A DNA stretch of 64,000 nucleotides. Origin: Croceivirga lutea. Lineage in GTDB: Bacteria; Bacteroidota; Bacteroidia; Flavobacteriales; Flavobacteriaceae. Both the position numbers and the translations under genes were made by a program. A model generated the notes under the pieces. That model was given only the letters and a program-made list of their open reading frames with translations. It did not search any database and had not been told where the DNA came from. The stretch's first letter is position 1. Each line of letters begins with the position of its first letter. Below are positions 2,599-37,962 of this stretch, one piece after another. The stretch covers positions 682,001-746,000 of the forward strand of contig NZ_JACJUK010000001.1 of NCBI RefSeq assembly GCF_014235875.1, read 5' to 3'.

Positions 2599-2641
2599 TG
2601 ACCAAAATCATTTTCAGCATTGTACACCTTAACTATATTTA
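2599..2641 (+). promoter_or_regulatory. Stress-regulon promoter of mlaEFD
   Basis: The palindromic box TGACCAAAATCA (2599-2610) is followed at the fixed 23 bp distance by the -7 element TATATTTA (2634-2641). The box centre sits near -41.5 from the expected start site. The mlaE ATG is 55 nt after the box. Confidence 0.65.
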
Positions 2642-2665
2642 AGGGAAAAACCAAGAATTTAGTAA

Positions 2666-3448
2666 ATGGCTGTTGCAACAGAGGCGTTACACAGAACAAA
2701 ACAATTCTTTATAGAGATTGGAGAGCTTTCTACATTTGCCAGTCGTTTCTTCAAAGAAGTAATTAAAGCGCCCTTTGAATTTAAAGAACTACTAAGACAA
2801 TGCTATCAATTAGGGGTACGCTCACTATTTTTGGTTGGTCTGACTGGCTTTATCATAGGCCTAGTTTTGACCTTGCAATCTAGACCAACCCTAATTGAGT
2901 TTGGTGCTGTTTCTTGGATGCCTAATATGGTTGGAATATCCATAGTAAGAGAAATTGGTCCTGTAATTACTGCCCTAATATGTGCAGGTAGAATAGCTTC
3001 TGGTATTGGAGCAGAACTGGGTTCAATGCGTGTTACAGAACAAATTGATGCCATGGAAGTTTCAGGCACCAACCCTTTTAAATACTTAGTGGTAACCAGA
3101 ATTTTAGCTACAACCCTAATGTTGCCATTACTGGTTGTTTTTGGTGATTTAATTGCGCTATACGGTTCGGCCTTAGTTGAAAACCTTAAAGGAAATGTGT
3201 CTTTTCAACTTTATTTTAACACGGTTTTCGGCGCACTATCATTTGGTGATTTAATACCCGCGACGGTGAAATCGTTCTTTTTTGGTTTTGTCATTGGACT
3301 GGTAGGTTGTTACAAGGGTTACAACAGTAAAAAAGGTACAGCAGGCGTGGGATTAGCTGCTAATACAGCTGTTGTGATGGCTTCTTTACTGTTATTTATG
3401 GTAGATTTTATTGCGGTTTTTATTTCTGATATTTTTTATGAGCTATGA
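2666..3448 (+). CDS. mlaE: MlaE-type ABC transporter permease
   Basis: 260-residue permease (MlaE/TRC40-independent DUF140 family) of the Mla phospholipid transport complex in the inner membrane. An amphipathic N-terminal helix precedes about five membrane segments. Family landmarks visible are 'REIGPVITALICAGRIASGIGAELG' (broken here: REIGPVITAL, AGRIASGIGAELG) and 'MRVTEQIDAMEVSG', the coupling region that touches the ATPase. The end 'FIAVFISDIFYEL' is membranous. It overlaps mlaF by 4 bp (ATGA), so the two are translationally coupled. It is the first gene of mlaE-mlaF-mlaD; no mlaA, B or C is nearby. The stress box upstream suggests that outer-membrane lipid maintenance is raised with the USP regulon. 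Confidence 0.93.
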   Translation: MAVATEALHRTKQFFIEIGELSTFASRFFKEVIKAPFEFKELLRQCYQLGVRSLFLVGLTGFIIGLVLTLQSRPTLIEFGAVSWMPNMVGISIVREIGPVITALICAGRIASGIGAELGSMRVTEQIDAMEVSGTNPFKYLVVTRILATTLMLPLLVVFGDLIALYGSALVENLKGNVSFQLYFNTVFGALSFGDLIPATVKSFFFGFVIGLVGCYKGYNSKKGTAGVGLAANTAVVMASLLLFMVDFIAVFISDIFYEL

Positions 3449-4227
3449 AAGTACCCAATAACACTAATGCAAATGGAAAAAAACAAACCAATAACAAGGT
3501 AATTATAAAAATTAAAGGGCTTCGAAAAAGTTTTGGTGAAAACCACGTTCTTAAGGGGTTTGACATGACCCTTTATGAGGGTGAGAATTTGGTTATTATG
3601 GGCAAATCAGGTTCAGGAAAATCGGTTATGATTAAGTGTTTAGTGGGGCTAATTGCTCCAGATAGCGGATATGTTGAGGTACTTGGAAAAGATATTTCAA
3701 CTTTGAATCAAAAGTCTCTAGATGCGTTGCGCGCAAATATTGGATTTCTATTTCAAGGTAGCGCCCTTTACGATTCAATGACTGTTCGTGAGAACTTAGA
3801 GTTTCCAATGCGTAGACATCAACAAAAATTGGGTAAAGTAACCAATACCGAACCTTTAGTACTAGAAGCCTTAGAAAATGTGGGCTTAGCTCATACCCTA
3901 GATTTAATGCCTGCTGAACTTTCTGGGGGTATGAAAAGAAGGGTTGCTTTAGCCCGAACATTAATTTTGAAGCCTAAAGTTATTTTATATGATGAACCAA
4001 CAAGTGGCCTAGACCCTATTACCTCTAAAGAAATCATTGAACTAATGCGTACCATACAGAAAAAATATGGTACATCATCATTGATTATAACTCATGATGT
4101 AGATTGCGCACGGGTCATATCTGAACGCATGATTCTTTTGGTCGATGGTATTAATTACGCAGAAGGTACTTACGCCGAGCTATCAGCATCGAAAGATTTA
4201 AAAGTAGAAGCATTTTTTAAAAAGTAA
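3445..4227 (+). CDS. mlaF: MlaF-type ABC transporter ATPase
   Basis: 260-residue ATP-binding subunit that powers MlaE. It has Walker A 'GKSGSGKS' (about residue 52), a Q-loop in 'FLFQGSALYDSMTV', the signature 'LSGGMKRRVALAR', Walker B 'VILYDEPTSGLD' and the switch histidine in 'IITHDVD'. The 'SGGM' form of the signature is characteristic of MlaF rather than of LolD or CcmA. The N-terminus has a 20-residue polar extension rich in Asn and Lys before the ABC domain. The gene is tightly packed between mlaE (4 bp overlap) and mlaD (4 bp gap). Confidence 0.94.
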   Translation: MKVPNNTNANGKKQTNNKVIIKIKGLRKSFGENHVLKGFDMTLYEGENLVIMGKSGSGKSVMIKCLVGLIAPDSGYVEVLGKDISTLNQKSLDALRANIGFLFQGSALYDSMTVRENLEFPMRRHQQKLGKVTNTEPLVLEALENVGLAHTLDLMPAELSGGMKRRVALARTLILKPKVILYDEPTSGLDPITSKEIIELMRTIQKKYGTSSLIITHDVDCARVISERMILLVDGINYAEGTYAELSASKDLKVEAFFKK

Positions 4228-4231
4228 TATC

Positions 4232-5209
4232 ATGGCAAAAACGGCCCAACAAAATTTAAAATTAGGCATTTTCGTAATTCTTGGAACCTTGTTATTGCTA
4301 ATTGCGGCCTATCTCATTGGCAATCGTCAGAACATGTTTACTAAAAACTTCACAATAACAGCAATATTTAAAAACGCCAATGGACTTCAAAATGGAAACA
4401 ACGTAAGATTTTCAGGAATTAATGTAGGTACCGTTAATAAAATAGAAATGATTAATGATACTACTATACAAGTTTTTATGGCTATACAAGAAAAAATGCA
4501 AAGCCATATTAAAAATAATGCCGTGGCAACTATTGGCTCTGATGGTCTTGTAGGTAGTATGCTTGTAAATATTGTACCAGGACAAGGGGAGGCACCACTT
4601 ATTAAAGCGGGTGATGAATTACAATCTTTCAGCAAAATTGCAACACAAGACATGCTTAATACTTTAAATGTAACTAACGAGAATGCCGCTCTTTTAACAG
4701 CCGATTTATTGCAAGTAACACAATCGTTAACAAAAAGTGATGGTACATTAGGTAGCTTACTAAATAATACTACAATGGCAAAAAACTTGCAACAAACTAT
4801 GGCAAATCTAAACCAAGTTAGTTCAAAAGCAAATACCTCTATGTATCAGATAAATAACATTCTTGGTCAGATTAATTTACAAGAAAGCGCGGCTGGGGTA
4901 TTGCTTAACGATACGTTATCTGCGAGAAAAATAAAGACTGTCATCTATAATCTAGAAGCTTCTAGTATTGAAATTAATAACATGTCTAAAGAATTGGGTA
5001 GTATTATCAGTGATTTAAATGATGAAAAAGGAATGTTGTACTATGTTGCTAAAGATACCGTATTGGTCAAACAACTAAAAAACACTATGAAACATATTGA
5101 TCAAGGAACAGAGCGTTTTAATGAAAATATGGAAGCATTAAAACATAATTTTCTAACCCGTGGCTATTTTAAAAAACAGGAAAAATTAAATAAAAAGAAA
5201 GATAATTAA
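4232..5209 (+). CDS. mlaD: MlaD/MCE-domain lipid-binding protein
   Basis: 325 residues: one N-terminal membrane anchor (about 10-30, 'LGIFVILGTLLLLIAAYLIG'), then a single MCE domain (about 40-115, with 'GLQNGNNVRFSGINVGTV' and 'IGSDGLVGSMLVNIVPG'), then a long helical tail predicted to be coiled-coil with repeated Asn/Leu/Thr stretches. MCE proteins form hexameric rings that pass phospholipids between membranes. The tail is longer than that of E. coli MlaD (about 183 residues) and resembles the single-MCE proteins of Bacteroidetes. It is the last gene of the operon; the stop TAA overlaps a short ATG frame that I do not consider a gene. Confidence 0.9.
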   Translation: MAKTAQQNLKLGIFVILGTLLLLIAAYLIGNRQNMFTKNFTITAIFKNANGLQNGNNVRFSGINVGTVNKIEMINDTTIQVFMAIQEKMQSHIKNNAVATIGSDGLVGSMLVNIVPGQGEAPLIKAGDELQSFSKIATQDMLNTLNVTNENAALLTADLLQVTQSLTKSDGTLGSLLNNTTMAKNLQQTMANLNQVSSKANTSMYQINNILGQINLQESAAGVLLNDTLSARKIKTVIYNLEASSIEINNMSKELGSIISDLNDEKGMLYYVAKDTVLVKQLKNTMKHIDQGTERFNENMEALKHNFLTRGYFKKQEKLNKKKDN

Positions 5210-5574: not shown

Positions 5575-6396
5575 TTAGGATTGGTTTGCAATGGCTAGCA
5601 AAGGTATTCTGGCATGCATTACTAGCTCTCTTCCCACACTTTTATTAAATATTTTATCGAAAATTGTATGCTTTCTTGTGAACAGCACAAGAATATCAGC
5701 GTTAATATCGGCACAATAATCTTCTATTTCTTCAACAACGTCTTCATTTTGAAGCACGGTTATAGTGAAGTTATTATCCTTAAAAGTTTTTGTTAGTTCT
5801 GATTTGATGCCCTCAACATCTAAACCTTTAGTACTCGAATTAAACACATGCAATAGGTGCAATTTGGTCTTAAAAGCAACCAAAAAATTCCTAATTTTTT
5901 CTAGCTGTTCAAAGTGGTCTATAGTTTCAGTTGCCAGTACCGTATTTGTAATACCTCTAAACCTAGCTAATTCTGGAATAACAATTACAGGAATGGTACT
6001 ATTCTCCATTACGGCAGCAGCATTACTGCCGAACAATGTCTTTTTTAGACCTGTAGCACCTTTAGTACCCATCACAATTAAATCAACACTGTTCTTAACT
6101 CCAAAGTTTTCAATTACCTTTTCGAAAGAATCTCCTGCTACTGTGGCATCCGTTATCTTTACCTCATCACCAACATAATCACTAAGTTCTTTCAAGAGTC
6201 TTTCCATCTTAACCTTACTACTTTTTTTGACAGCGTCATGCAACCTGTGTCTAGCCATAGAAACCATTCCTGGAGTATCAGATACAATCACCTGTAAGAG
6301 TATTATGTTGGCATTTATTGCTTTGGCCATATCTATGGCATAATCTACGGCTACTCTAGAAAGCTTTGAGAAATCTGTGGGAACCATTATTTTCAT
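5575..6396 (-). CDS. Universal stress protein, two tandem Usp domains
   Basis: 273 residues, two Usp domains. The first domain begins 'MKIMVPTDFSKLSRVAVDYA' and carries the ATP-binding motif G-2x-G-9x-G-S as 'GTKGATGLKKTLFGSN' (about 130-145). The second domain ('LLHVFNSSTKG' onward) ends 'TRKHTIFDKIFNKSVGREL' and lacks the glycines, so only one nucleotide site is expected. It is the only USP of the block on the minus strand and stands apart from the main array by 13 kb. A stress box and -7 element lie about 190-230 bp upstream, giving a long leader with a perfect inverted repeat. Confidence 0.93.
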   Translation of the reverse strand: MKIMVPTDFSKLSRVAVDYAIDMAKAINANIILLQVIVSDTPGMVSMARHRLHDAVKKSSKVKMERLLKELSDYVGDEVKITDATVAGDSFEKVIENFGVKNSVDLIVMGTKGATGLKKTLFGSNAAAVMENSTIPVIVIPELARFRGITNTVLATETIDHFEQLEKIRNFLVAFKTKLHLLHVFNSSTKGLDVEGIKSELTKTFKDNNFTITVLQNEDVVEEIEDYCADINADILVLFTRKHTIFDKIFNKSVGRELVMHARIPLLAIANQS

Positions 6397-6586: not shown

Positions 6587-6629
6587 GGAAACTACATAAC
6601 AACATTTACCTTTACAATGACATCCGTCA
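6587..6629 (-). promoter_or_regulatory. Stress-regulon promoter of the minus-strand USP
   Basis: Read on the minus strand: box TGACGGATGTCA (6629-6618), 23 bp, then TAGTTTCC (6594-6587) as a weak -7 element. The start site would lie near 6582, leaving a leader of about 185 nt before the ATG at 6396. Confidence 0.5.
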
Positions 6630-10725: not shown

Positions 10726-11235
10726 TTATAAAAATGTTCCTGTTTCATCCACTTTGACCCTTAATACTTTGTCACCATTCTCTAGTTTAAGCTTATACTT
10801 CTTAGTAGAGCCTTTTGTATCATGATACTGTACTAAGTAAATATCCTTAGTTATTGTCCACTCTGGGAACCGATCTAATACAGCTTTCTTTACTACATCA
10901 GGAAGGTTGACATTCTTGTATTTTTCGGCTGTACGTAGCAACTTCCCATCTTTATCATAGGCGGCAAGAATTTTACCTTCAGGAATAAAGAAATTAATCT
11001 GGTATAAATCGTAGTCATCTTGATAGAACTCTGAGTCTTTAACATTAAAAGCAGCAACTTTACGCTGCAATAGTTCAACCGGAAGTGAAGCTACCTCACC
11101 CGTGTTCATATTATTCAAATATTTGTAATTCGTAGCATAAACCGTAACCTCCGATAACTGTTCAGTTTTTATGATTTGTGCAAAAGTTTGAGTGGTCAGC
11201 CCAAGTAAAATAAGACCTAAAACCATTTTTTTCAT
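10726..11235 (-). CDS. Secreted PepSY-like/DUF2874-type protein
   Basis: 169 residues from the ATG at 11235, giving a signal peptide MKKMVLGLILLGLTTQTFA; a frame open to 11280 would put 15 odd residues in front and is less likely. The mature part holds 'GKILAAYDKDGKLLRTAEKYKNVNLPDVVKKAVLDRFPEW', the pattern of PepSY-like periplasmic proteins (Y..dG.......+..lP..v..ai...yP.w), and a C-terminal 'YKLKLENGDKVLRVKVDETG'. Similar flavobacterial proteins are usually called hypothetical. First gene of the operon with dodecin, behind a stress box. Confidence 0.7.
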   Translation of the reverse strand: MKKMVLGLILLGLTTQTFAQIIKTEQLSEVTVYATNYKYLNNMNTGEVASLPVELLQRKVAAFNVKDSEFYQDDYDLYQINFFIPEGKILAAYDKDGKLLRTAEKYKNVNLPDVVKKAVLDRFPEWTITKDIYLVQYHDTKGSTKKYKLKLENGDKVLRVKVDETGTFL

Positions 11236-11295
11236 TATTTCAATATTTAGATTAATAATTAGACGTAACATAGAACCCATACTGGTTCTTTTAAG

Positions 11296-11338
11296 CTAAA
11301 TTATCGCTAACGAGCTGGCACTACAATGACTTGAATCA
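11296..11338 (-). promoter_or_regulatory. Stress-regulon promoter of the PepSY-like/dodecin operon
   Basis: On the minus strand the box TGATTCAAGTCA (11338-11327) is followed after 23 bp by TAATTTAG (11303-11296), a good -7 element. The start site would be near 11291, with a leader of about 55 nt to the ATG at 11235. Confidence 0.65.
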
Positions 11339-12269: not shown

Positions 12270-12312
12270 TGACCTAGGTCATTTTTTAGGTTGTATACAT
12301 GGCATATATTCG
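12270..12312 (+). promoter_or_regulatory. Stress-regulon promoter in front of a probable small RNA
   Basis: TGACCTAGGTCA (12270-12281) is a perfect palindrome, extended to AAAATGACCTAGGTCATTTT. TATATTCG starts 35 bp after the box start (12305-12312) on the plus strand. No protein gene follows; the next plus-strand signal is a terminator at 12498. The opposite direction has only a weak match, TAGTGTTA. Confidence 0.6.
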
Positions 12313-12316
12313 CTCT

Positions 12317-12528
12317 ATAGTTATTAAAGTATTAGTTCTTTGAAAATAAAAAATAGGTGTTTTAATGTAGCAATACCCTGAAGCACCAAAGAAGGTATCA
12401 CAAATGTGTATAATCTTGTGGTAAGCCAGTTTACCCAGCAATAGGTGATTTGAGTGAGCTACTTTAAGTGAAATATACAAATGCAATACCTTCTTGGAAC
12501 CAGGGCATTTAAGCCCTGGTTTCTTTTC
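12317..12528 (+). ncRNA. Candidate structured small RNA, possibly 6S-like
   Basis: A transcript from the predicted start near 12317 to the terminator at 12498-12528 would be about 210 nt and contains no credible coding frame. It is bracketed by a long-range stem: CCAAAGAAGGTAT (12386-12398) pairs with ATACCTTCTTGG (12486-12497), one bulge only. Inside, TGTGTATA near 12405 can pair with TATACA near 12474, and GGTAA/TTACC forms an apical stem around 12420-12435. A long rod of stems interrupted by unpaired bulges is the architecture of 6S RNA, and the Rfam family 6S-Flavo covers flavobacteria, but I cannot test the match. The 66-codon frame on the opposite strand is antisense noise. Confidence 0.5.
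12498..12528 (+). terminator. Terminator of the candidate small RNA
   Basis: AACCAGGGC (12498-12506) pairs with GCCCTGGTT (12513-12521) around ATTTAA, followed by TCTTTTC. The T tract exists only on the plus strand, which fixes the direction of transcription. Confidence 0.8.
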
Positions 12529-12846: not shown

Positions 12847-13917
12847 TTATCCAAATTCGGCAATCGCTTCTAAATCATCTTTACGTAATAGAATAATTTT
12901 TCTACCCTTGTCTGTGGTTATGATACCTTCATCTTTAAATTCAGATAAAGTTCTAATTGCTGTTTCTGTGGCAGTACCTATGAGACCGGCAAAATCTTCT
13001 CGCGGTATTCCGGCTCCTCCGTCAGGTGTGTCTAATATAATACCCTTATCATAAAGATCTAATAGTGCTCTGGCTGCCCTTTGTCTTACTGGTGCAAAGG
13101 CCATAGCTACTAATTTTTTTTGCACATCTATTAGATTGTTAGAGACCATTTCAATAAATTTCTTACTAACCATTGGGCTGCTATAAAGTAATTTTAAAAA
13201 ATCTTCTTTTGGAATGGCACATAACTCTGCATGCTCTAAAATAACAGCATTTTCAACATATTGGCCATTGGTATTTAAAAGTGATAATTGGCCAATAAAA
13301 TCTCCTGGTCCAAAGAGTCCGGTTACCAATTCCTTTCCAGCTTCTGTACCCTTATAAGTCTTAACACTGCCACTTTCAATAAAATATAGAGCATTAGCAC
13401 GGTCACCTTCCCAAAATACTATTTCTTTTTTTTCATAAGATTTTACTTCGTGATCTTTAGAAAGATCTTCTAATTCAACGTAATCAGATACCGTTTCAAG
13501 AAATGAATTAAGACCTTTAAGTGTTCTTGTAATTGTCTTTTTTAAAGACTCATTCTTTTTTAATCTGCTCGAAATAGCATTAAGCAATTCTTTCTCTTGA
13601 AAAGGTTTGGTTAAATAATCATCAGCCCCAAGATTCATTCCTGTTCTAATATCAAAAGGGTTAGATTTTGCGGTTAAAAAAATAAAAGGGATACTAGACG
13701 TACCATCGTCTAGACTTAAATTTTGCAAAACCTCATAACCATCCATTTCTGGCATCATAATATCACAAAGAATTAAGTCAGGCTTGAATTGTTTAGCGCG
13801 AATAACACCTACACTACCATTTTCAGCCGTGAATACCTGGTAGTCTGCAAGTTCTAAAATATCTGCCGTATTCTCTCTAACATCAATATTGTCTTCAATT
13901 AGTAATATTTTTTTCAT
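12847..13917 (-). CDS. REC-cNMP-fold-CRP/FNR HTH response regulator, candidate master of the stress regulon
   Basis: 356 residues in three parts. Receiver domain 1-120: acidic residues in 'IEDN', phospho-acceptor Asp52 ('LCDIMMPEMDG'), Lys in 'DYLTKPF'. Cyclic-nucleotide-binding fold about 150-265: 'FWEGDRANALYFIESGSVKTYKG', 'GPGDFIGQLSLL'. The phosphate-binding Arg of true cAMP receptors (R-S-A) is replaced ('YVENAV'), so cAMP binding is unlikely. HTH_Crp about 285-356: 'GIPREDFAGLIGTATETAIRTLSEFKDEG'; the recognition helix keeps Glu and Arg four apart (E-T-A-I-R), as in CRP (Glu181/Arg185) and FNR (Glu209/Arg213), which read TGA. No FNR-type cysteine cluster. Transcribed directly behind its kinase (10 bp gap) from a promoter with the same box it may read. 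Confidence 0.9.
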   Translation of the reverse strand: MKKILLIEDNIDVRENTADILELADYQVFTAENGSVGVIRAKQFKPDLILCDIMMPEMDGYEVLQNLSLDDGTSSIPFIFLTAKSNPFDIRTGMNLGADDYLTKPFQEKELLNAISSRLKKNESLKKTITRTLKGLNSFLETVSDYVELEDLSKDHEVKSYEKKEIVFWEGDRANALYFIESGSVKTYKGTEAGKELVTGLFGPGDFIGQLSLLNTNGQYVENAVILEHAELCAIPKEDFLKLLYSSPMVSKKFIEMVSNNLIDVQKKLVAMAFAPVRQRAARALLDLYDKGIILDTPDGGAGIPREDFAGLIGTATETAIRTLSEFKDEGIITTDKGRKIILLRKDDLEAIAEFG

Positions 13918-13927: not shown

Positions 13928-15544
13928 TTATGGCGTGTTCAGTGATAACGGCAAAGCCAGTTGAAATGAACTGCCTGTACCTATTTCACTTTTGAATGTA
14001 ATTTTTCCCCCTAGCAACTCTGTATATTGCTTTACAATGTGCAAACCAAGGCCGGTACCTTGTAAGTTAATAACGTTAGATGCACGAAAAAACCGCTCGA
14101 ATAAATGATATTGTTCATCTTGTGGTATACCCATACCCTTATCTGTAATGGTAATTAAAACCCTATCTAGTTGTTGCCGTATTTTGATAAAAATCTTTTG
14201 TCCTTCTTCAGAGTATTTAATAGCATTAGATAAAAGATTAATAAGAATATGCGTTAAAAGTTTAGAATCTTGAAACAACATAAGTTCTGTATTGCTGTGT
14301 TTTAATTGAATCTGTTGTCCTAACTTTTTTGTAGGCAAAACCTCTTGTATGACCAATTTTACCAAATTAAATAACTCAAAAGATTTTGGTTTTGCGCGGA
14401 TAATGCCTTCATCTAATTTATCAAGCGATAAAAAATCGTTGAGAATTACAACCAGATAGTTTACGTTAGATCGAATACGTTCTACATGCTTAAGTCTTCT
14501 TTTTTCTTTACCGGTTTCATTTTGTTTACTTATAAGAATAGCTGACGATAGTATAGCACTTAAAGGCGTTCTAAACTCATGAGAAGCTATTGCGATAAAT
14601 CGTGATTTTAATTCGTTTAAATTTTGTTCAGCATACAAGGCCGCTTCTAATTTCTCTTGAAGTCTTTTTTGATGAGTTATGTTATTAAAAACCAAAAGTG
14701 CCCGCTGATTTTCTTTTTCTTGAGTCTGCAGCGGGGTTGTTTGTAAAGAGTAATGCTGCCCTCGAAACGATACTTCATCCTCAACCAATTCTCCTTTAAG
14801 GGTAGCTTCAACATCTCTTTTGATTTTTGCAAGTTCTATGTTTGAAAATATTGTGATTTGGCTCAAATTATGGTTAATGAATTCAGATTTCTTGAGTCCC
14901 ATTCTATCAAGCTCTTCACCATCAATGTAAATAAGTTCTAGACTGTTGTTAAATACCATAATTGCGCTCCGAGGAAATTTCTGTACAATTGCGGTCAAAA
15001 ACATTCTGCTTTCATGCATCTTACTTTCCGCTTTCTGAGTAATGGCCATTTGGCTCTCAAGAGCTAGATTAGTTTCGACCAAATTTTTAATGGTATCTTG
15101 TAGTTCTTGAGTGTGGTATTTAACCTTTGCTTTTAATGTTTTTGGTAATCTATCGAGCTTTTTTTGGTTTTTCTTTAATTCAGTAATATCTGTCCCAGAA
15201 CATATAATACCCTTAACGTTGCCGTCTACATCTTTAAGTAAAGAGTTGCTCCACTGAATTAGTTTACAATTGTTTTCTTTTGTTACTATCCAATTCTCAT
15301 AAATAGCCGGTGGCTTAATTATGCCTTTTATAATTTGATCAAAAAGAAAGGTCAGTTTCTTTTGCTCATTTTTTGGAATACAATGATAAAACCAGTTCTT
15401 ACCCAAGATTTCATGGCGCGCATATCCAAGAATATCGCAGCCCTTTTGGTTAATTAATTCTACAGCGTAATCAGAATTAATTACCACAAATAAACAGGCT
15501 GCTGTATCTAAATAACTAAAAAGCGTACGGTCTTCTATTTCCAT
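13928..15544 (-). CDS. PAS-domain histidine kinase, partner of the REC-CRP regulator
   Basis: 538 residues, soluble, no membrane segment. PAS domain at about 5-125 ('FVVINSDYAVELINQKGCDILGY…GTDITELKK'), a coiled linker (130-180), a second PAS-like domain (185-300, 'FNNSLELIYIDGEELDRMG'), HisKA with the H-box 'IASHEFRTPLSAI', and HATPase_c with N box 'LINLLSNAIKYS', 'DKGMGIP' and 'GTGLGLHIVKQY'. Cys in the first PAS domain are few, so no haem or Fe-S ligand pattern can be called; the signal may be redox, oxygen or metabolic. First gene of the operon with the REC-CRP regulator. A stress box and -7 element lie about 135-175 bp upstream, indicating autoregulation. Confidence 0.92.
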   Translation of the reverse strand: MEIEDRTLFSYLDTAACLFVVINSDYAVELINQKGCDILGYARHEILGKNWFYHCIPKNEQKKLTFLFDQIIKGIIKPPAIYENWIVTKENNCKLIQWSNSLLKDVDGNVKGIICSGTDITELKKNQKKLDRLPKTLKAKVKYHTQELQDTIKNLVETNLALESQMAITQKAESKMHESRMFLTAIVQKFPRSAIMVFNNSLELIYIDGEELDRMGLKKSEFINHNLSQITIFSNIELAKIKRDVEATLKGELVEDEVSFRGQHYSLQTTPLQTQEKENQRALLVFNNITHQKRLQEKLEAALYAEQNLNELKSRFIAIASHEFRTPLSAILSSAILISKQNETGKEKRRLKHVERIRSNVNYLVVILNDFLSLDKLDEGIIRAKPKSFELFNLVKLVIQEVLPTKKLGQQIQLKHSNTELMLFQDSKLLTHILINLLSNAIKYSEEGQKIFIKIRQQLDRVLITITDKGMGIPQDEQYHLFERFFRASNVINLQGTGLGLHIVKQYTELLGGKITFKSEIGTGSSFQLALPLSLNTP

Positions 15545-15678: not shown

Positions 15679-15721
15679 TAAAGATAATTTAATTATTGTA
15701 GTATTGATATGACATTTGTCA
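15679..15721 (-). promoter_or_regulatory. Stress-regulon promoter of the kinase and REC-CRP genes
   Basis: On the minus strand: box TGACAAATGTCA (15721-15710), 23 bp, then TATCTTTA (15686-15679), an excellent -7 element. This is the key site for autoregulation of the proposed regulator. Confidence 0.65.
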
Positions 15722-16556: not shown

Positions 16557-16599
16557 CTAATGTACGTTTGAGTAATAGGCACAACAATGATTTGGGTCA
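16557..16599 (-). promoter_or_regulatory. Stress-regulon promoter of hsp20
   Basis: On the minus strand: box TGACCCAAATCA (16599-16588), 23 bp, TACATTAG (16564-16557). The ATG is 70 nt after the box. Confidence 0.6.
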
Positions 16600-18766: not shown

Positions 18767-18809
18767 TGACCTAGATCATTTTAAAAAAAGTAAATCCATA
18801 ATAGTTTAG
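18767..18809. promoter_or_regulatory. Divergent stress-regulon promoter (hpf-USP / DUF2267)
   Basis: TGACCTAGATCA (18767-18778) lies in the middle of a 122 bp divergent region, 55-56 bp from both ATGs. Plus strand: TAGTTTAG at 18802-18809, correct spacing. Minus strand: CAATTTTA at 18743-18736, a poor -7 match, so the minus direction is less certain. Confidence 0.6.
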
Positions 18810-20401: not shown

Positions 20402-20444
20402 CAAAAATAAGATGATGTTATTAGCCTCAATATGATTAAAATCA
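20402..20444 (-). promoter_or_regulatory. Stress-regulon promoter of the TerB-like gene
   Basis: On the minus strand: box TGATTTTAATCA (20444-20433), 23 bp, TATTTTTG (20409-20402), a perfect TAnnTTTG. On the plus strand no -7 element exists at the right place, so the box serves the minus gene although it is only 24 bp from the kinase ATG; it could then repress the kinase by overlap. Confidence 0.65.
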
Positions 20445-20467: not shown

Positions 20468-21607
20468 ATGCATGTGTTTCAGAAAAACAGCAATATTTTT
20501 CATTTGCTATCAGAAGGGGTATCTGAAGGCATTATAGTGGTAAACACCAAACAACAAATTGTGGCCACTAACTCATCTGCCAACGAAATGTTTGGCTATG
20601 AAAAAGAAGAACTATTAGACAAATCTATAGACACCGTTATTCCCAAAAGATACCATACAGACCATAACAAACACGTAGATAAATTTATTCTTAAAAGTGA
20701 AAAGCGTTCAATGGGGCAAGGCCGAGAACTTTACGGGGTAAAAAAAAATGGACAAGAATTCCCTGTAGAGGCTGGGTTAAACCCTTTTAAACTCTATGGC
20801 TCTACCTATGTTATGGCGTTAATAACAGATATAACCGAGCGCAAAAATTACACAGAAAATCTAGAGAGAATAGTTCAAGAACGCACTAAACAACTAACTG
20901 AAGCCTTAGCCAAAGAAAAAGAGCTCAGTGAACTAAAAACCCGTTTTCTGTCTTTGGTTTCTCATGAATTTAAAACACCGCTAAGTAGTATTTTAACCTC
21001 TGTTACTTTATTAGGCAAATACACCAAAACCGATGAACAAAAAAAGCGTGATAAACATGTTAACACCATTCGTAATAAGGTCATGTATCTAGATACTATT
21101 TTAAACGACTTTCTTTCTATAGAACGATTAGATTCAGGGAAAATGCACTACAAGTTAGAAGAATTTCCATTGAGTAAATTGGTCAACGAAGTTATTTATG
21201 ATGCCAACATGTTACTTAAACCGGGGCAGCAAATTAAGTATCCTGAAAACATAGACGACTTAATAATCAAATTTGACGAAAAAACCTTAGAATTGGGGTT
21301 GTCAAATCTTATTTACAACGCCATAAAATATTCTCCTGAAGATACCACGATAGAAGTAATCGTCAACAGGAAAACAACAAACTTAGAAATCTGTGTAAAA
21401 GACGAAGGTATTGGTATCCCCAAAAAAGACCAGAAACACATTTTTGACCGGTATTTTAGAGCAGAAAACGCTCTTCTAACACAAGGTACTGGTATTGGTT
21501 TAAACATTGCAAAACAGCATTTGAAAAATCTTGACGCAACACTTGATTTTTCTAGCGTAGAAAACCAAGGCTCTACATTTACCATTACTATTCCACTAGA
21601 AATTTAA
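20468..21607 (+). CDS. PAS-domain histidine kinase
   Basis: 379 residues, soluble. One PAS domain (10-125; 'IIVVNTKQQIVATNSSANEMFGYEKEELL', split here after residue 37, and 'ALITDITERKN'), a short coiled linker, HisKA with His166 in 'LVSHEFKTPLSSI', and HATPase_c ('LSNLIYNAIKYS', 'DEGIGIP', 'GTGIGLNIAK'). The catalytic half is clearly paralogous to the kinase at 13928-15544. Followed 12 bp later by a REC-only regulator. PAS region lacks haem-type motifs that I could recognise. Confidence 0.93.
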   Translation: MHVFQKNSNIFHLLSEGVSEGIIVVNTKQQIVATNSSANEMFGYEKEELLDKSIDTVIPKRYHTDHNKHVDKFILKSEKRSMGQGRELYGVKKNGQEFPVEAGLNPFKLYGSTYVMALITDITERKNYTENLERIVQERTKQLTEALAKEKELSELKTRFLSLVSHEFKTPLSSILTSVTLLGKYTKTDEQKKRDKHVNTIRNKVMYLDTILNDFLSIERLDSGKMHYKLEEFPLSKLVNEVIYDANMLLKPGQQIKYPENIDDLIIKFDEKTLELGLSNLIYNAIKYSPEDTTIEVIVNRKTTNLEICVKDEGIGIPKKDQKHIFDRYFRAENALLTQGTGIGLNIAKQHLKNLDATLDFSSVENQGSTFTITIPLEI

Positions 21608-21619: not shown

Positions 21620-22036
21620 ATGAAAAAAATTCTGTTGATAGAAGATGACCGTGCCCTACGAGAAAACACGGCTGAACTCTTAGAACTTTATGGATACAAG
21701 GTACGTACAGCAGCGAATGGGATGGATGGTTTAAAGTATGCTCAAGAATCACCTCCAGATATTATTTTATGTGACATTTTAATGCCCAAAATGAATGGTT
21801 ACAGTGTATTGCAAGAGTTAGCTTTTGATAATAATACTAGACATATTCCGTTCATTTTTCTTTCTGCAAAAACAGAGCTAAAAGAGATTAGAAAAGGAAT
21901 AAACTTAGGCGCAGACGACTACTTAACTAAACCGTTTGATGAAAACGACTTACTTAATGCCATTGAAAACTGTTTATCCAAAACAAAACTTTTATCAAAA
22001 AAATTAAAACAGCTACCCTTCAAAGTAATTCTCTAA
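21620..22036 (+). CDS. REC-only response regulator behind the PAS kinase
   Basis: 138 residues. Acidic cluster 'IEDD', phospho-acceptor Asp52 ('ILCDILMPKMNG'), 'FLSAKTELKEIRKG', Lys in 'DYLTKPFDEND'. It is very close to the receiver part of the REC-CRP regulator (both 'KKILLIEDN/D', 'RENTA', 'LGADDYLTKPF'), but the frame ends about 17 residues after the domain with no cNMP or HTH part. It could compete for the same kinases, pass phosphate on, or be a shortened copy of the REC-CRP gene. Operon with the kinase. Confidence 0.92.
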   Translation: MKKILLIEDDRALRENTAELLELYGYKVRTAANGMDGLKYAQESPPDIILCDILMPKMNGYSVLQELAFDNNTRHIPFIFLSAKTELKEIRKGINLGADDYLTKPFDENDLLNAIENCLSKTKLLSKKLKQLPFKVIL

Positions 22037-22429: not shown

Positions 22430-22472
22430 TGATTAATGTCATGGATAATCGTTAATGAGGCTAATAAATTTG
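22430..22472 (+). promoter_or_regulatory. Stress-regulon promoter of USP array gene 1
   Basis: Box TGATTAATGTCA (22430-22441), 23 bp, TAAATTTG (22465-22472), a perfect -7 element. Predicted start near 22477, box centre at about -41.5. The ATG at 22494 is 52 nt after the box. Confidence 0.72.
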
Positions 22473-23351: not shown

Positions 23352-23394
23352 TGACCCTAATCATAATCTATAAATGTTAGGCTATATAGATTTA
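23352..23394 (+). promoter_or_regulatory. Stress-regulon promoter of USP array gene 2
   Basis: Box TGACCCTAATCA (23352-23363), 23 bp, TAGATTTA (23387-23394). The USP start is 130 bp further on, so the leader is about 125 nt; no small frame or strong hairpin was recognised in it. Confidence 0.62.
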
Positions 23395-24410: not shown

Positions 24411-24453
24411 TGATATACGTCATAGTATAACTGTTAAGTACAAAATACATTTG
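24411..24453 (+). promoter_or_regulatory. Stress-regulon promoter of USP array genes 3-4
   Basis: Box TGATATACGTCA (24411-24422), 23 bp, TACATTTG (24446-24453), a perfect -7 element. It overlaps the first codons of the longer frame open at 24451, which rules that start out and supports the ATG at 24475, 52 nt after the box. Confidence 0.7.
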
Positions 24454-26322: not shown

Positions 26323-26365
26323 TGATTTAAATCATAAGTAGTCATAGACTCAAAGTTTACTTTTA
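26323..26365 (+). promoter_or_regulatory. Stress-regulon promoter of USP array gene 5
   Basis: TGATTTAAATCA (26323-26334) is a perfect palindrome; TACTTTTA (26358-26365) follows at the fixed 23 bp distance. The ATG at 26389 is 54 nt after the box. Confidence 0.68.
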
Positions 26366-27492: not shown

Positions 27493-27535
27493 TGACCTAT
27501 ATCATGGTTTAAATGGTCTTCCTCTAGTAGATTTA
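27493..27535 (+). promoter_or_regulatory. Stress-regulon promoter of the USP 6-8 / RNase operon
   Basis: Box TGACCTATATCA (27493-27504), 23 bp, TAGATTTA (27528-27535). It would head a long unit (27562-33730) in which the gaps are 62 bp or less and no terminator is visible. Confidence 0.68.
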
Positions 27536-27561
27536 ACAATCAAATTTAAAAATGAATGACT

Positions 27562-28398: not shown

Positions 28399-28408
28399 TA
28401 TTGAAGTA

Positions 28409-29257: not shown

Positions 29258-29319
29258 CAATAGTCTTTTTGACTTTTTTAAAGGCGTAAACATTTATTAA
29301 AAATCTTAATAACCTAAAC

Positions 29320-33740: not shown

Positions 33741-33783
33741 TGACCTATATCATTGTACCCTCACTAATTGTAATGTAGTTTAC
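33741..33783 (+). promoter_or_regulatory. Stress-regulon promoter of the first coiled-coil gene
   Basis: Box TGACCTATATCA (33741-33752), identical to the one of USP gene 6, 23 bp, TAGTTTAC (33776-33783). The ATG at 33801 is 48 nt after the box. It starts 10 bp after the RNase stop. Confidence 0.6.
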
Positions 33784-33800: not shown

Positions 33801-34220
33801 ATGTGGCAAGTCGTAACTAATACTAATCAAGTACAAAAGGTTGAAGACCTGCATTGGGAGATTCAGCATTTAAAGTCAAAAATTCAGTTTTTAGATAATG
33901 AGGTTCTTTTTTTGAAAAGACTGTTAGAATCTTATGTTTTTGAACCTAATACACTTAAGCTTTTTAAACGTTTTGAAGTTTTTAAAAGAGAGCTTACAAG
34001 AATTGATAAAATTAGATTAGAGTTAATTAACAATATCTCTAAACACGAGAATAATCTAGCCGGAATGTATGATTCTATTAACTCTTCTTGTGATAAATGG
34101 TCCTACCAAAAACATACTACCTTAAAAGGTGAAGTTGATGAAATTATCAACAAATTTCGAGAACTAAAGTCTAGTGTTTTTAATTATGCTCAAGGTATTT
34201 TAAAAAACCGAAGGCCTTAA
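33801..34220 (+). CDS. Helical coiled-coil protein of unknown function (paralogue 1)
   Basis: 139 residues, not recognised as a known family. Almost entirely helical with heptad-like Leu/Ile spacing: 'DLHWEIQHLKSKIQFLDNEVLFLKRLL' (split at residue 35), 'FKRFEVFKRELTRIDKI', then 'HENNLAGMYDSINS'. No signal peptide or membrane segment. It shares with the next gene a layout 'L..W…L.F…E..FL..LL.S', 'F…FK.eL…', and a length of 140-160, so the two look like old paralogues. Each has its own stress promoter, which argues for real roles in the regulon. Confidence 0.7.
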   Translation: MWQVVTNTNQVQKVEDLHWEIQHLKSKIQFLDNEVLFLKRLLESYVFEPNTLKLFKRFEVFKRELTRIDKIRLELINNISKHENNLAGMYDSINSSCDKWSYQKHTTLKGEVDEIINKFRELKSSVFNYAQGILKNRRP

Positions 34221-34250: not shown

Positions 34251-34293
34251 TGATTAATATCATTTTTACTATTAAGTGTGTAGTATAAATTTA
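34251..34293 (+). promoter_or_regulatory. Stress-regulon promoter of the second coiled-coil gene
   Basis: Box TGATTAATATCA (34251-34262), 23 bp, TAAATTTA (34286-34293). The ATG at 34321 is 58 nt after the box. It may also drive the lipoprotein and D-lactate dehydrogenase genes downstream. Confidence 0.66.
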
Positions 34294-34320: not shown

Positions 34321-34803
34321 ATGAATACCAAGGTTCCAAAATACACATACACAGAATGGTTTACAAAAGAGGAAATGCACGAAAACTTAAAAACGTGGTT
34401 TTCTCAACTTTCATTTGTAAAAGATGAGCATCGGTTTTTGAACAATCTCATACAATCTTTTGCAATTAAAACGCTTAGGAAACAAGAATTTGAAAAAATA
34501 AAAGAATTTAAAAAAGCACTAGTTGAAACCCAGAAAATGTTAAACCCTATTATTAAGCAAGTGCAAAAACAAATGAACCAACTTGAAATTATGATAGATA
34601 AGGTTGATGAATTGGAAAAGGAAAAGACCTATACAAAGCTTCACAAAAAACTACTTAGCAATGTCAATAAATATCTCTTGAACTATAGCTCAGTTAAAGA
34701 AAAGGGTTTTATGAATTTATCATCAATTTTAAAGAAAGAGCAAGGAAGATTTTTTATTGGTAATCCAGAATATAAATTAAGTAAGATTCAAGAAGAAAAG
34801 TAA
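34321..34803 (+). CDS. Helical coiled-coil protein of unknown function (paralogue 2)
   Basis: 160 residues, no known family recognised. 'ENLKTWFSQLSFVKDEHRFLNNLIQSF' (split after residue 34) parallels the start of the previous protein; a long helix with 'EFEKIKEFKKALVETQKMLNPI' and 'QVQKQMNQLEIMIDKVDELEKEK' follows. Very Lys/Glu-rich and probably cytoplasmic. It may form homo- or hetero-oligomers with paralogue 1. The next gene starts 33 bp after its stop, so co-transcription is likely. Confidence 0.7.
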   Translation: MNTKVPKYTYTEWFTKEEMHENLKTWFSQLSFVKDEHRFLNNLIQSFAIKTLRKQEFEKIKEFKKALVETQKMLNPIIKQVQKQMNQLEIMIDKVDELEKEKTYTKLHKKLLSNVNKYLLNYSSVKEKGFMNLSSILKKEQGRFFIGNPEYKLSKIQEEK

Positions 34804-34842
34804 CGCTAAAACATAACTATTTAAAATATTGATGTAATGCAA

Positions 34843-35499
34843 ATGAGAAAACTAATTCTATTAGCTACAGTTGCCTTCATGGGATGCTCATCGGCCAGTT
34901 TGGTTGAAAATTGGAAAAACCCTGAGATTGTACAGTTTCATGCCAATAAAGTATTGATTGTGGGTATGACACAAAATGAAAAGGCACGGAAAAGTTTTGA
35001 GACCAATCTAAAAAAAGAATTTACCAAAAGAAATGTCGAAGCAATGCGTAGCCTCGATATTTTTGATGTAGAATTTACAGATACTAAAAGAACCGAAGAA
35101 GAACTAAACGAGGTTGAACAGAGCCTTTTAGACAAAGATTTTGACGCTATTTTGTTTACCAAAGTAATAGGTTCAGAAGACCGTCAGAGTTTTATAAAAA
35201 ACCTTTCTCAATGGGATAATTACAAAGGTAGGTTCAATGAAGACTACTATGAAAGTCAAGACATTTATTACGATGAGAGTTATTATGAGACCTTTAAGGT
35301 ATATCATGCCCAAACAACCCTCTATTGTATTTGTGAAGGTAAAGAACGGGCCATGATTTGGAGGGGTAGTTTAGATGTTACCGATCCCAGTAATATAGAA
35401 AAATCTGTAAACGACTACATTAAGCTTGTCGTATTAGCATTAGAAGAGCAAGACTTAATATTTTACAAAGATTCTGAAGATGAAATTACTGGTTTATAG
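34843..35499 (+). CDS. Lipoprotein, DUF4136-like
   Basis: 218 residues from the ATG at 34843 (an ATG two codons earlier, at 34837, is equally open). Lipoprotein signal MRKLILLATVAFMGC with Cys in the 'FMGC' lipobox. The mature part starts 'SSASLVENWKNPEI', the usual '..sw+.p......+vlVvg...n...R..fE..l...l' pattern: 'KVLIVGMTQNEKARKSFETNL' (split after 40). 'LDKDFDAILFTKVIGSED' follows, then a Tyr-rich acidic segment 'YYESQDIYYDESYYETF'. Function unknown. Its 3' end overlaps the D-lactate dehydrogenase gene by 20 bp, which couples their translation. Confidence 0.75.
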   Translation: MRKLILLATVAFMGCSSASLVENWKNPEIVQFHANKVLIVGMTQNEKARKSFETNLKKEFTKRNVEAMRSLDIFDVEFTDTKRTEEELNEVEQSLLDKDFDAILFTKVIGSEDRQSFIKNLSQWDNYKGRFNEDYYESQDIYYDESYYETFKVYHAQTTLYCICEGKERAMIWRGSLDVTDPSNIEKSVNDYIKLVVLALEEQDLIFYKDSEDEITGL

Positions 35500-36487
35500 T
35501 GCAAAAGATTTTGAGATACCCTATCTTAAAAAAGCAAACGAGAAAGGTCATAGAATAGCCTTTTGTAACGAAGCTCTTGATAGTGAAACCGCAATTAATG
35601 CAGTAGGCCATAAGGCAATTTCTATTTTTTCTGGTGATGATGCTTCGGTTACTGTACTAGAAATCTTATGGAATTTAGGAGTTCGTTACATTACGTTACG
35701 CTCTTCGGGTTATAACAACATCAATCTTAAAAGGGCAAAAAGTCTTGGTTTTAAAGTTGCCAATACCCCAAATTATTCCCCACATGCCATAGCAGAACAC
35801 GCTGTTGCTCTGCTGCTTACATTTAATCGTAAGCTAATAACGGCCAATACTCAAACACACCAATACAATTTTGAACAGAATAATTTAATTGGTTTTAACC
35901 TGCATGGCAAAACTGTGGGTATTATTGGTACAGGCAGAATTGGTAGTATTATGGCAAAAATTATGCATGGTTTTGGTTGCAACATACTAGGCAATGATCT
36001 TGAACCAGATGATGACCTTGTAGAGAACTGCGGTGTAACATATACTTCTCTAGATGACATTTGCAGAAAAGCAGATATAATAAGCTTACACATACCTCTA
36101 AATAGCAGAAATTACCAGCTTATTAATAAAAGTAAGTTTATAATGATGAAGCAAAACGTTATTTTAATTAATACTGCACGTGGAGCAATCGTAGAAACCA
36201 ATGCGCTACTAAAAGCGTTAGAAACCAAAAATATAGCAGGATATTGCACAGATGTTTATGAAAAGGAAAAAGGCATATTCTTTAAAGACCACTCAACTGA
36301 AGGAATTACAGATGAAAAACTCATAAGACTACTTTCTTTACCAAATGTGCTTCTTACACCCCATACTGGTTTTGCTACAGAAGAAGCTTTAGAAAATATT
36401 GCTCAAATCACCTTTGAAAACATAGATGATTGGGAAGAAGTAGGTATTTGCCAAAATGAACTAGGTCTCGAGCTTATAGAATCATAA
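35480..36487 (+). CDS. ldhA: D-lactate dehydrogenase (D-2-hydroxyacid dehydrogenase family)
   Basis: 335 residues, the usual length of fermentative D-LDH. Substrate-domain 'YITLRSSGYNNINL' and 'VANTPNYSPHAIAEHAVALLL'; NAD-binding 'GKTVGIIGTGRIGSIMAKI'; catalytic Arg in 'LINTARGAIVE', Glu in 'YCTDVYEKE' and His in 'LLTPHTGFATEEAL'. The 'YCTDVYEKEKGIFF' and '…DEKLIRLLSLPNVLLTPH' segments are specific to LdhA-type D-LDH rather than phosphoglycerate dehydrogenase. It reduces pyruvate to D-lactate and re-oxidises NADH when respiration is limited, the clearest hint at low oxygen as the signal. Overlaps the lipoprotein gene and converges on cls with a 6 bp overlap. Confidence 0.9.
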   Translation: MKLLVYSAKDFEIPYLKKANEKGHRIAFCNEALDSETAINAVGHKAISIFSGDDASVTVLEILWNLGVRYITLRSSGYNNINLKRAKSLGFKVANTPNYSPHAIAEHAVALLLTFNRKLITANTQTHQYNFEQNNLIGFNLHGKTVGIIGTGRIGSIMAKIMHGFGCNILGNDLEPDDDLVENCGVTYTSLDDICRKADIISLHIPLNSRNYQLINKSKFIMMKQNVILINTARGAIVETNALLKALETKNIAGYCTDVYEKEKGIFFKDHSTEGITDEKLIRLLSLPNVLLTPHTGFATEEALENIAQITFENIDDWEEVGICQNELGLELIES

Positions 36488-37894
36488 TATTGGACTTAAT
36501 ACTCTACCTATACCCTCCTTTAGTTTTTCTTTTGATGACCTAGATTTATGTTCAGTTAAAGAAAGCTGTTTACTAAGAGATACATCCTTCAAAAAGTCCT
36601 TTCTTAATGCTTTAGCAAATTCTTCATCATAAACCAAAGCATTTACTTCATAGTTATGTTCAAGGCTTCGGTCATCTAAATTAGCAGAGCCTATGGTCGA
36701 GATTGCATCATCACTCACTATCATCTTGCTATGTAAAAAGCCATCAGGGTATATGTATATTTTAATACCCGATTTAAGGAAGATTTCAAAATATGATTGT
36801 ACGCTCCAGTTGACAATTTTACTTTCTGATTTCTCAGAGAGCAGCATTCGAACATCTACCCCACTTAAGGCAGCCATAAGTAATGCCTGCAACAAGGCTT
36901 GACCTGGAATTACATAAGGGTTGATAATGTACAGATACTTCTTTGCACTATAGATGATATTTAAATAGGTCTGTTCTAAAACCGGAAAATCATCATCTGG
37001 GCCTCCTGAAACAATTTGAACAAGTTTCTTTGCCTTACCGTTTAAATTAGTATCAGGAACATAGGAAAATGTGATAACCTTTTGACTTACAAGATACCAA
37101 TCCATTGCAAAAACATAGTTAAGCTGTGCAGCAGCACTACCTTCTATTCTTAAGTGCATATCATGCCAATTACCAAGTTTGGGGTCGCCCTTTAGGTATT
37201 TATCAGAAATATTAATACCTCCTGTAAATGCAATTTTGTTATCTACAACTATTATTTTCCTGTGATTTCTATAGTTTAACGAGGCAAGAAATCTTCCAAA
37301 CTTAAAAGGAAGAAAAGGATAGACCTCTACACCAATATCGTTGAGCTTTTTTAAATATTTTTTGCTTAATGAAAAGCTACCAATACCGTCATAAATCAAC
37401 CGTATAGCTACACCTTGGTCAATTTTTTGTTTAAATAAAGAAAGTAGTTTGTTCGCAAGTTCACCATCTTCAAAAATGTAATATTGCAGGTGAATAAATT
37501 TTTGGGCTCCATTTAAGGCTTTGAAAATAGATTCGAATGTGGATTTGCCATCATTTAAAACCTCTAAAGTATTATTATAAGTCAGAGATAAATTTGTGTT
37601 GGTTTGAACAAGGTTGATTAATTTTTGATACGTATTGTCTGTAAATTCTGAATTAAATATAGCTGGTTGGGGTAGCCTTAAAAAGTCTTTTTTAAGTCTT
37701 AATAGCTTGTTCTTCCGTCTATTTCTTCCCAAGACCAAATACAGAAGAATGCCTCCTACAGGTATAGTGAAAATGGCTAACAGCCAAGAAAGTGTTTTTG
37801 AAGGTTTAGCACCATAAATCAATAGACTAATGACAATAGCAATTGCTAGGGTGGAATAAAAAATTAGAATTATTACGAGCCATGTCACGCGCAA
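36482..37894 (-). CDS. cls: Cardiolipin synthase (two HKD motifs)
   Basis: 470 residues. Two N-terminal membrane helices ('WLVIILIFYSTLAIAIVISL', 'LSWLLAIFTIPVGGILLYLVLG'; the P-x-x-G form is typical of ClsA), then two phospholipase D domains with 'HRKIIVVDNKIAFTGG' and 'HSKMIVSDDAISTIGS'. It joins two phosphatidylglycerols to make cardiolipin at the inner membrane. The first HKD is followed by 'LKGDPKLGNWHDMHLRIEG', as in the family. Own stress promoter on the minus strand. Like mla, it ties envelope lipid remodelling to the regulon. Confidence 0.93.
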   Translation of the reverse strand: MRVTWLVIILIFYSTLAIAIVISLLIYGAKPSKTLSWLLAIFTIPVGGILLYLVLGRNRRKNKLLRLKKDFLRLPQPAIFNSEFTDNTYQKLINLVQTNTNLSLTYNNTLEVLNDGKSTFESIFKALNGAQKFIHLQYYIFEDGELANKLLSLFKQKIDQGVAIRLIYDGIGSFSLSKKYLKKLNDIGVEVYPFLPFKFGRFLASLNYRNHRKIIVVDNKIAFTGGINISDKYLKGDPKLGNWHDMHLRIEGSAAAQLNYVFAMDWYLVSQKVITFSYVPDTNLNGKAKKLVQIVSGGPDDDFPVLEQTYLNIIYSAKKYLYIINPYVIPGQALLQALLMAALSGVDVRMLLSEKSESKIVNWSVQSYFEIFLKSGIKIYIYPDGFLHSKMIVSDDAISTIGSANLDDRSLEHNYEVNALVYDEEFAKALRKDFLKDVSLSKQLSLTEHKSRSSKEKLKEGIGRVLSPIL

Positions 37895-37919
37895 ATCTAT
37901 TTAACAAAAGAATGATGTT

Positions 37920-37962
37920 ACAAATTACCTTATCATTTAATCTTTCAATATGATTTTAATCA
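37920..37962 (-). promoter_or_regulatory. Stress-regulon promoter of cls
   Basis: On the minus strand: box TGATTAAAATCA (37962-37951), 23 bp, TAATTTGT (37927-37920), in which TTTG is shifted by one base. The ATG is 56 nt after the box. This is the last box with a -7 partner that I see in the window. Confidence 0.55.

Follow-up and report, generated by a model that had tools for sequence, protein, structure and literature searches.

A 64,000-nucleotide stretch of the Croceivirga lutea genome (Flavobacteriaceae; contig NZ_JACJUK010000001.1, positions 682,001 to 746,000 of the forward strand; hereinafter, the window) carries a short palindromic box that recurs in front of genes for universal stress proteins (USPs), Hsp20 and other genes, in most cases followed at a fixed distance by a promoter -7 element. 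Which regulator recognizes this box, what signal does it convey, and how widely is the arrangement conserved? The analysis described here suggests that the 16 box-promoter units of the window are most likely class II sites of a CRP/FNR-type activator of a clustered stress regulon, and that this activator is RR-A, a response regulator encoded within the cluster.

A palindromic box at a fixed distance from the -7 element

The box pattern, TGAYNNNNRTCA, produced 19 matches in the window compared to the 3.15 expected from dinucleotide shuffles (standard deviation 1.79; none of the 100 shuffles reached 19). In 16 of the 19, TAnnTT is located on the same strand exactly 35 bp after the start of the box; hereinafter, this pattern, box-N23-TAnnTT, is called the composite, and the same pattern read backwards served as the control. 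All 16 composites of the window are intergenic; 15 point at an open reading frame (ORF) and one, at 12270, at a small RNA. The original prediction, made from the sequence of the window, listed 15 boxes with the fixed -7 element, which are borne out as intergenic and present on both strands, along with a 16th (37951) thought to have a slightly shifted -7 element. All 16 boxes are real, but the last one is not shifted, with TAATTT at the same 35-bp place, and three boxes without a -7 element at this distance were overlooked (11490, intergenic; 18693 and 50169, both coding). The box consensus of the regulon is (A/C)TGAY-N4-RTCA, and position -1, over the 32 half-sites of the window, is occupied by A (0.72), C (0.25), G (0.03) and T (0.00).

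The whole genome (3.45 Mb) contains 31 composites, versus 4 matches to the reversed control. Of these, 16 are in the window, 9 lie at 104-127 kb of contig C12, and 6 are singles. Intergenic location was found for 29 of the 31 (16 of 16 in the window and 13 of 15 elsewhere), and each intergenic composite lies in front of a gene or the small RNA. The two composites located in coding DNA, both outside the window, do not exceed the number predicted by the reversed control. When counted as the original prediction had proposed, that is, in intergenic versus coding DNA and against controls, the composite is thus both enriched and intergenic.

Class II activators of the CRP/FNR type bind at position -41.5. 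In flavobacterial sigma-A promoters, the accessible sections of a transcriptome study place TAnnTTTG at -12 to -5 (PMC9723704). With the -7 element at this place, a box starting 35 bp upstream is computed to span -47 to -36 and is, because of this placement and spacing, centred at -41.5. Across the compared groups of loci, the sequence of this element is TAnnTTT, and the next base is mostly G or A. Relative to the predicted transcription starts, the box-promoter units appear to have the class II CRP/FNR-type geometry. The composites, the regulators and the small RNA of the window are as follows.

2599..2639, plus strand: composite; target, mlaE, an ABC ATPase gene and mlaD (2666-5209)
6589..6629, minus strand: composite; target, USP (5575-6396), with a long leader of 186 nt
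11298..11338, minus strand: composite; target, 184-aa protein (10726-11280) with no Pfam family
12270..12310, plus strand: composite with a perfectly palindromic box, TGACCTAGGTCA; small-RNA promoter
12317..12527, plus strand: small RNA, ends predicted, with boxA-like GTTCTTTGAAAA at +19, hairpins and an intrinsic terminator
12847..13917, minus strand: RR-A, response regulator with receiver, cNMP-binding-type and HTH_Crp domains, the proposed master activator
13928..15544, minus strand: HK1, PAS histidine kinase, operon partner of RR-A
15681..15721, minus strand: composite of the HK1-RR-A operon
16559..16599, minus strand: composite; target, Hsp20 (16050-16517)
18767..18807, plus strand: composite; target, HPF-type protein (18835-19146) and USP (19148-19972)
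20404..20444, minus strand: composite; target, 134-aa protein (19974-20378) with no Pfam match, TerB-like by inspection only
20468..21607, plus strand: HK2, histidine kinase with a FixL/DosP-like PAS domain
21620..22036, plus strand: REC2, lone receiver
22430..22470, plus strand: composite; target, USP (22494-23327)
23352..23392, plus strand: composite; target, USP (23525-24376)
24411..24451, plus strand: composite; target, USPs (24451-26184), the true start being probably an internal ATG near 24475
26323..26363, plus strand: composite; target, USP (26389-27225)
27493..27533, plus strand: composite; target, USPs (27556-30162)
33741..33781, plus strand: composite; target, 139-aa protein (33801-34220) with no Pfam family
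34251..34291, plus strand: composite; target, 160-aa and 220-aa proteins and a D-2-hydroxyacid dehydrogenase (34321-36487), a putative operon of predicted extent
37922..37962, minus strand: composite; target, cardiolipin-synthase-like PLD protein (36482-37894)

Conservation of the composite in relatives

To assess conservation, we compared the best 80 of the 471 loci around homologous regulators in titled genome records, nearly all from Bacteroidota. When spacings from 12 to 69 bp between the box and TAnnTT were scanned, 162 pairs fell at 35 bp and 25 at the next most frequent spacing, 57 bp; four control palindromes produced 0 to 4 matches at 35 bp. At least one composite is present in 49 of the 80 loci, and 145 of the 162 composites are intergenic, although 88% of this DNA is coding. 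The intergenic density of the box is 2.2 per kb in loci L068-L079, 2.3 in L127-L147 and 1.4 in L080-L126 (mostly deeper-branching Bacteroidota), compared to 0.07-0.11 per kb in the coding DNA of these loci and 0.05-0.07 per kb for six control palindromes in their intergenic DNA.

The spacing of 57 bp (35 + 22) appears as a second one in L080-L126, and paired boxes 22 bp apart were detected in L121 and L130; these are possibly class I or tandem sites.

Among the 133 proteins encoded first downstream of the composites in these loci, a Pfam tally limited to the commonest 25 of the 77 families includes 42 Usp, 9 HATPase_c (PAS kinases), 6 Hsp20, 5 YtxH, 2 COX1 and 2 PPDK_N.

RR-A, the candidate activator

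RR-A contains a receiver domain (REC; PF00072) and an output part that belongs to the CRP/FNR superfamily, with both the cNMP-binding-type (CNB) sensor domain (PF00027, 1.2e-23) and HTH_Crp (PF13545, 3.3e-13); its operon partner HK1 contains HisKA and HATPase_c. The best solved relatives of the CNB-HTH part are a Crp-family regulator (PDB 4ev0) and E. coli CRP, both of which, unlike RR-A, have no receiver. In the alignment with E. coli CRP, the recognition helix of RR-A, GTATETAIR, retains the Glu and Arg of GCSRETVGR, the residues that read TGA, and lacks the Arg that precedes the Glu.

RR-A is not a cAMP-dependent CRP: the Arg-Ser of the phosphate-binding cassette, which serves cAMP binding, is replaced in the alignment by Val-Glu (GQYVEN in place of GQERSA). 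Neither is it FNR proper, a 4Fe-4S protein. The proteobacterial FNR/ANR regulons share with the system described here the class II position at -41.5, the TGA-TCA core and the USP and cbb3-type targets, but RR-A has an N-terminal receiver, response-regulator input and no N-terminal cysteine cluster, and the first T of the FNR site, TTGAT-N4-ATCAA, is absent from the box. The lack of T at position -1 fits the Ile that RR-A has in the place of the Ser in the recognition helix of FNR.

Full-length regulators with the REC-CNB-HTH_Crp architecture (hereinafter, REC-CRP) were identified in 15 of the 59 other genomes of the relatives set. In the titled genome records, the nearest named regulators are those of Maribacter, Pricia, Pelagihabitans, Arenibacter and Saonia. 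A kinase-like gene is located directly upstream of the regulator in 75 of 81 relatives. The HK1-RR-A operon is preceded by a composite in the window and in 7 of 10 untruncated operons of relatives, and we propose that it is positively autoregulated.

The kinases and the signal

Low oxygen is a likely signal because HK2 has a FixL/DosP-like PAS domain: its best solved relatives are the haem domains of DosP and FixL, and H66 and R86 of HK2 align, without gaps, with the His and the Arg of the FixL haem domain that are the proximal and the distal haem residue, respectively. Among the 77 kinases encoded beside REC-CRP genes, 67 align to the PAS domain of HK2; the His is kept in 65 and the Arg in 36. 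For 15 of the kinases, the identity to the FixL PAS domain (PDB 1d06) is 44-55% over 91-108 residues. These 15 kinases belong to Mucilaginibacter, Adhaeribacter, Epilithonimonas, Flavobacterium, Pedobacter and others (loci L096, L098, L101, L105, L114, L115, L117, L120, L121, L123-L125, L130, L134 and L135).

In Muriicola, Allomuricauda, Pricia and others, the gene that follows the HK2-like kinase encodes a type-B REC-CNB-HTH_Crp regulator. REC2, which follows HK2 in the window, is long-branched and clusters with 15 type-B receivers (support 100/99), and a search downstream of REC2 for a remnant of an output domain found none. It is therefore probable that the window lineage lost the output part of the type-B regulator and kept the kinase, and the present partner of HK2 in signalling may be RR-A or REC2.

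The case for oxygen is weakened by several observations. The PAS domain of HK2 is only 27% identical to that of FixL, and the His may persist in PAS domains that bind no haem. The FixL-like PAS could not be aligned with HK1, which shares an operon with RR-A, and REC2, the partner of HK2 itself, has no output domain. The signal might instead be starvation, stationary phase or redox, perceived through HK1, which would be compatible with class II activation by RR-A; HPF, USPs, Hsp20 and cardiolipin synthase are, by family, starvation genes as well. Against such a signal, the kinases next to REC-CRP in the sampled relatives mostly possess an HK2-aligning PAS domain that keeps the His, and in REC-CRP loci, cbb3 COX1 genes are preceded by a composite in two cases. 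Weighing these observations, we lean toward oxygen as the signal of the regulon and regard a signal other than oxygen as a real but lesser possibility.

Two apparent box dialects and the candidate regulators

Three proteins of the genome match PF13545 (HTH_Crp_2), namely, RR-A, an FNR-like protein of 229 aa (C12:126066-126755) that is a nearer analogue of FNR than RR-A is, and a third one encoded, by inspection, beside a SulP-type transporter gene; two of the three each sit inside one of the two clusters of boxes. The second cluster (C12:104091-128005) surrounds the gene of the FNR-like protein, has the same 35-bp spacing and a box dialect with TGAYA, and includes genes for a fused CcoN-FixO-type cbb3 oxidase, a copper-type P-ATPase, a radical-SAM protein (HemN-like by inspection) and USPs.

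Under an alternative scenario, the boxes are sites of this one-component FNR-like protein, REC-CRP is minor or unrelated, and the window constitutes the second half of one FNR-like regulon. The box core and the 35-bp spacing are indeed common to both clusters. The dialects, however, differ at position 5, which is A in 8 of the 32 half-sites of the window versus 16 of 18 in the FNR-like cluster (p=2e-5); in two congeners that lack REC-CRP, it is A in 43 of 62 half-sites (p=6e-5 versus the window). It seems that one box family has two dialects and that the boxes of each form a cluster around its own regulator.

The distribution of the composites was further compared with that of the regulator in 199 Flavobacteriaceae genomes, the source genome included, with regulators at least 56% identical to RR-A denoted type A. 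REC-CRP is present in 85 of these genomes. The median number of composites per Mb is 10.9 in genomes with type A (n=12), 7.1 in those with other REC-CRP (n=73) and 3.6 in those with none (n=114), and the respective means of the reversed control are 0.9, 0.8 and 1.0. Type-A genomes are the richest in sites, and genomes with REC-CRP carry about twice as many composites per Mb as the rest (Mann-Whitney p=3e-16; p=1e-11 when only genomes of at least 2.5 Mb are counted; both values ignore shared ancestry). Within the genus, 13-19 composites were counted in three genomes without REC-CRP versus 31-61 in eight genomes with it, including that of C. lutea.

Apart from the effect of shared ancestry, several findings speak against the assignment of the boxes to RR-A. 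The recognition helices of the FNR-like protein and RR-A, GTATESAIR and GTATETAIR, are nearly identical, and cross-binding of the two proteins to the boxes is possible. Composites exceed the control even in genomes without REC-CRP; these composites probably represent an FNR-like regulon because two such congeners show the dialect with A at position 5. Conservation upstream of genes in relatives, on which the original prediction had made its validity depend, holds, yet 31 of the 80 related loci contain no composite, and many boxes in the deeper-branching loci have no -7 element at 35 bp. Three of the 10 untruncated HK1-RR-A operons have no composite, and the box is present also at 61 of the 94 other gene heads in type-A loci, so that autoregulation is not special within this island. 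On balance, control of the window boxes by the FNR-like protein appears unlikely, and RR-A is retained as the candidate activator.

Target genes and the small RNA

The predicted leaders are 11-35 nt long for 11 of the 15 protein targets. Most of the targets named in the original prediction were recovered by Pfam searches, namely, ten USPs, Hsp20, HPF, MlaE/MlaD, the PLD-type cardiolipin-synthase-like protein and the kinase-regulator pair, and the small RNA was recovered as well; the D-LDH region was also correctly named, D-LDH being encoded by the third gene after the box at 34251. Dodecin has to be removed from the list: no dodecin-like ORF of at least 45 aa was found among the first ORFs downstream of the 16 sites. 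The operon behind the box at 27493 perhaps runs through 33730, in which case it would include genes for an MscS-type channel, an ATP-cone/Mrr-like protein and a beta-CASP metallo-hydrolase.

Far from the cluster, a single composite (C11:396146-396186) precedes a second HPF-type gene, the product of which matches PF02482 on a 60-residue fragment with 21.3 bits, below the curated 23.7. Just past the last composite of the window, there are two adjacent acetyl-CoA-synthetase-like genes (38073-41887; the first was tested against Pfam) followed by a lone receiver (41897-42262).

The predicted unit behind the box at 12270 is 211 nt long, ends in a strong terminator, has a folding z of -7.3 and contains no ORF of at least 45 aa. 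No Rfam family matched it at the gathering score, and other matches were far below their gathering scores. Eight similar units behind the same promoter, chosen by eye from the 29 composites of named loci that have no near downstream ORF, were identified in 7 named genomes, seven of them in type-A loci (L068-L077) and one in a type-B locus (L129). BLASTN ties seven of the eight to each other or to the window, partly via the promoter alone; the L129 unit is connected by architecture only. The motif GTTC(A/T)TT is located at +19 in eight of the nine units and at +16 in one. The strict promoter-plus-motif pattern matches 3 of the 199 genomes, one of them the source genome, and all three belong to the 12 with type A. 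Gelidibacter japonicus (L076:13042-13695) has the small RNA twice, in adjacent copies that are both preceded by a box promoter of their own.

The boxA comparison was taken from two relatives because no 16S rRNA gene was found in this assembly. In these relatives, GTTCATTG is located 132-155 nt upstream of the 16S anchor motif in three 16S leaders (one in genome G035 and two in G002); the fourth 16S locus could not be anchored. The motif of the small RNA thus occurs, as GTTCATT, also in these three rRNA leaders, which suggests boxA-type antitermination. RNAalifold, applied to a sequence-based alignment of the nine units, recovered the terminator and one short hairpin, and the wider architecture rests on single-sequence folds, which, by inspection, mostly include two hairpins and the terminator (z without the terminator from -0.8 to -7.3); the terminator of the L072 unit is weak.

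Comparison with known regulatory systems

The rhizobial FixLJ-FixK2 system resembles the one proposed here in combining a haem-PAS kinase (FixL; here the candidate HK2), a response regulator (FixJ, of the NarL type) and a CRP/FNR-type activator with a palindromic box. Here, FixJ and FixK are replaced by one protein with a receiver and a CRP-type output. In the accessible sections of a FixK2 study, the targets include USP, Hsp20, an MBL-fold hydrolase, a pyridoxamine-phosphate-oxidase-like protein and ppsA, and these kinds of genes have matches in the window, in the C12 cluster or in the relatives (PMC9104804). The FixK2 box given there, TTGA/C-N6-T/GCAA, differs from (A/C)TGAY-N4-RTCA (PMC9104804), and unlike FixK2, the present system uses the Bacteroidota -7 promoter. 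We do not assign it to FixLJ because a partner of the FixJ type, with a NarL/LuxR output, was not found, all partners being REC-CNB-HTH_Crp or REC-only.

In Myxococcus xanthus, NmpRSTU connects a haem-dependent sensor kinase to cbb3 and hemN genes at low oxygen, through an NtrC-like regulator and a protoglobin sensor, unlike the system analyzed here; the paper mentions USPs 12 times, with no role evident in its accessible part (PMC11841059). A flavobacterial transcriptome shows induction of cbb3 at low oxygen, and the words FNR and CRP do not occur in the accessible main text (PMC9723704). In a literature search restricted to open-licence papers, neither this regulon nor REC-CRP regulators of Flavobacteriaceae were found to be described, in agreement with the original prediction, which knew of no such flavobacterial regulon.

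The original prediction further postulated a dormancy-like programme with DosR-like logic. The targets are indeed of the stress or dormancy type, and mycobacterial DosRST shares with this system the hypoxia- and dormancy-like targets (USPs and Hsp20) and, putatively, input from a haem kinase. The DosR mechanism does not fit: DosR belongs to the NarL/LuxR-type response regulators and has another box, and the haem domain of the DosRST sensor is a GAF domain, whereas the geometry here is class II CRP/FNR and the candidate is a REC-CNB-HTH_Crp protein. That a DosR-type regulator controls the boxes is suggested by the similar target list (USPs, Hsp20, HPF and the kinase pair) and is nevertheless highly improbable, given the CRP/FNR-like box at -41.5 and response regulators of the cluster that are either REC-only or REC-CNB-HTH_Crp. 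No NarL/LuxR-type DosR was detected among the scanned regulators of the cluster, and membership in the DosR regulon is rejected. By analogy, the gene content appears to resemble the FixK2 regulon, as far as the accessible sections of its description go, at least as much as that of DosR. Finally, despite the AT-rich composition of the window (33% G+C) and the intergenic location of the sites, a chance or compositional origin of the box can be dismissed because the shuffles, the reversed pattern and the other palindromes gave several-fold to more than 20-fold lower counts and the spacing has a single peak.

Proposed mechanism and implications

In the mechanism that we propose for RR-A, a kinase (HK1 and probably also HK2) would phosphorylate the receiver of RR-A, an RR-A dimer would bind (A/C)TGAY-N4-RTCA centred at -41.5, and the bound protein, acting as an activator rather than a repressor, would recruit sigma-A RNA polymerase at TAnnTT. 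The predicted output consists of the ten USPs, Hsp20, HPF, Mla transport, the cardiolipin-synthase-like protein, the D-2-hydroxyacid dehydrogenase operon, the small RNA and the kinase-regulator operon itself. The most likely trigger would be a drop in oxygen or some other haem-ligand or redox signal. Such a system would work like FixL-FixJ-FixK with the last two components fused. More broadly, we tentatively put forward, as a possibility slightly short of an even chance, that it is a one-protein Bacteroidota counterpart of FixJ-FixK, in which a haem-PAS kinase acts via a receiver-CRP fusion on a clustered programme of hypoxic survival (USPs, Hsp20, ribosome hibernation and membrane remodelling) with one class II geometry. 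In part of the family, this programme would include a structured, boxA-bearing small RNA of about 210 nt, which rRNA-type antitermination may protect from Rho.

Little of the transcription control in Bacteroidota has been mapped. If the proposed scheme is correct, a computable signature, consisting of the box, 23 bp and the -7 element, would predict a survival regulon together with its regulator and would show that a CRP-type activator has been put under direct phosphorelay control. It would also provide a compact promoter type, probably responsive to hypoxia, for a phylum in which genetic tools are few.

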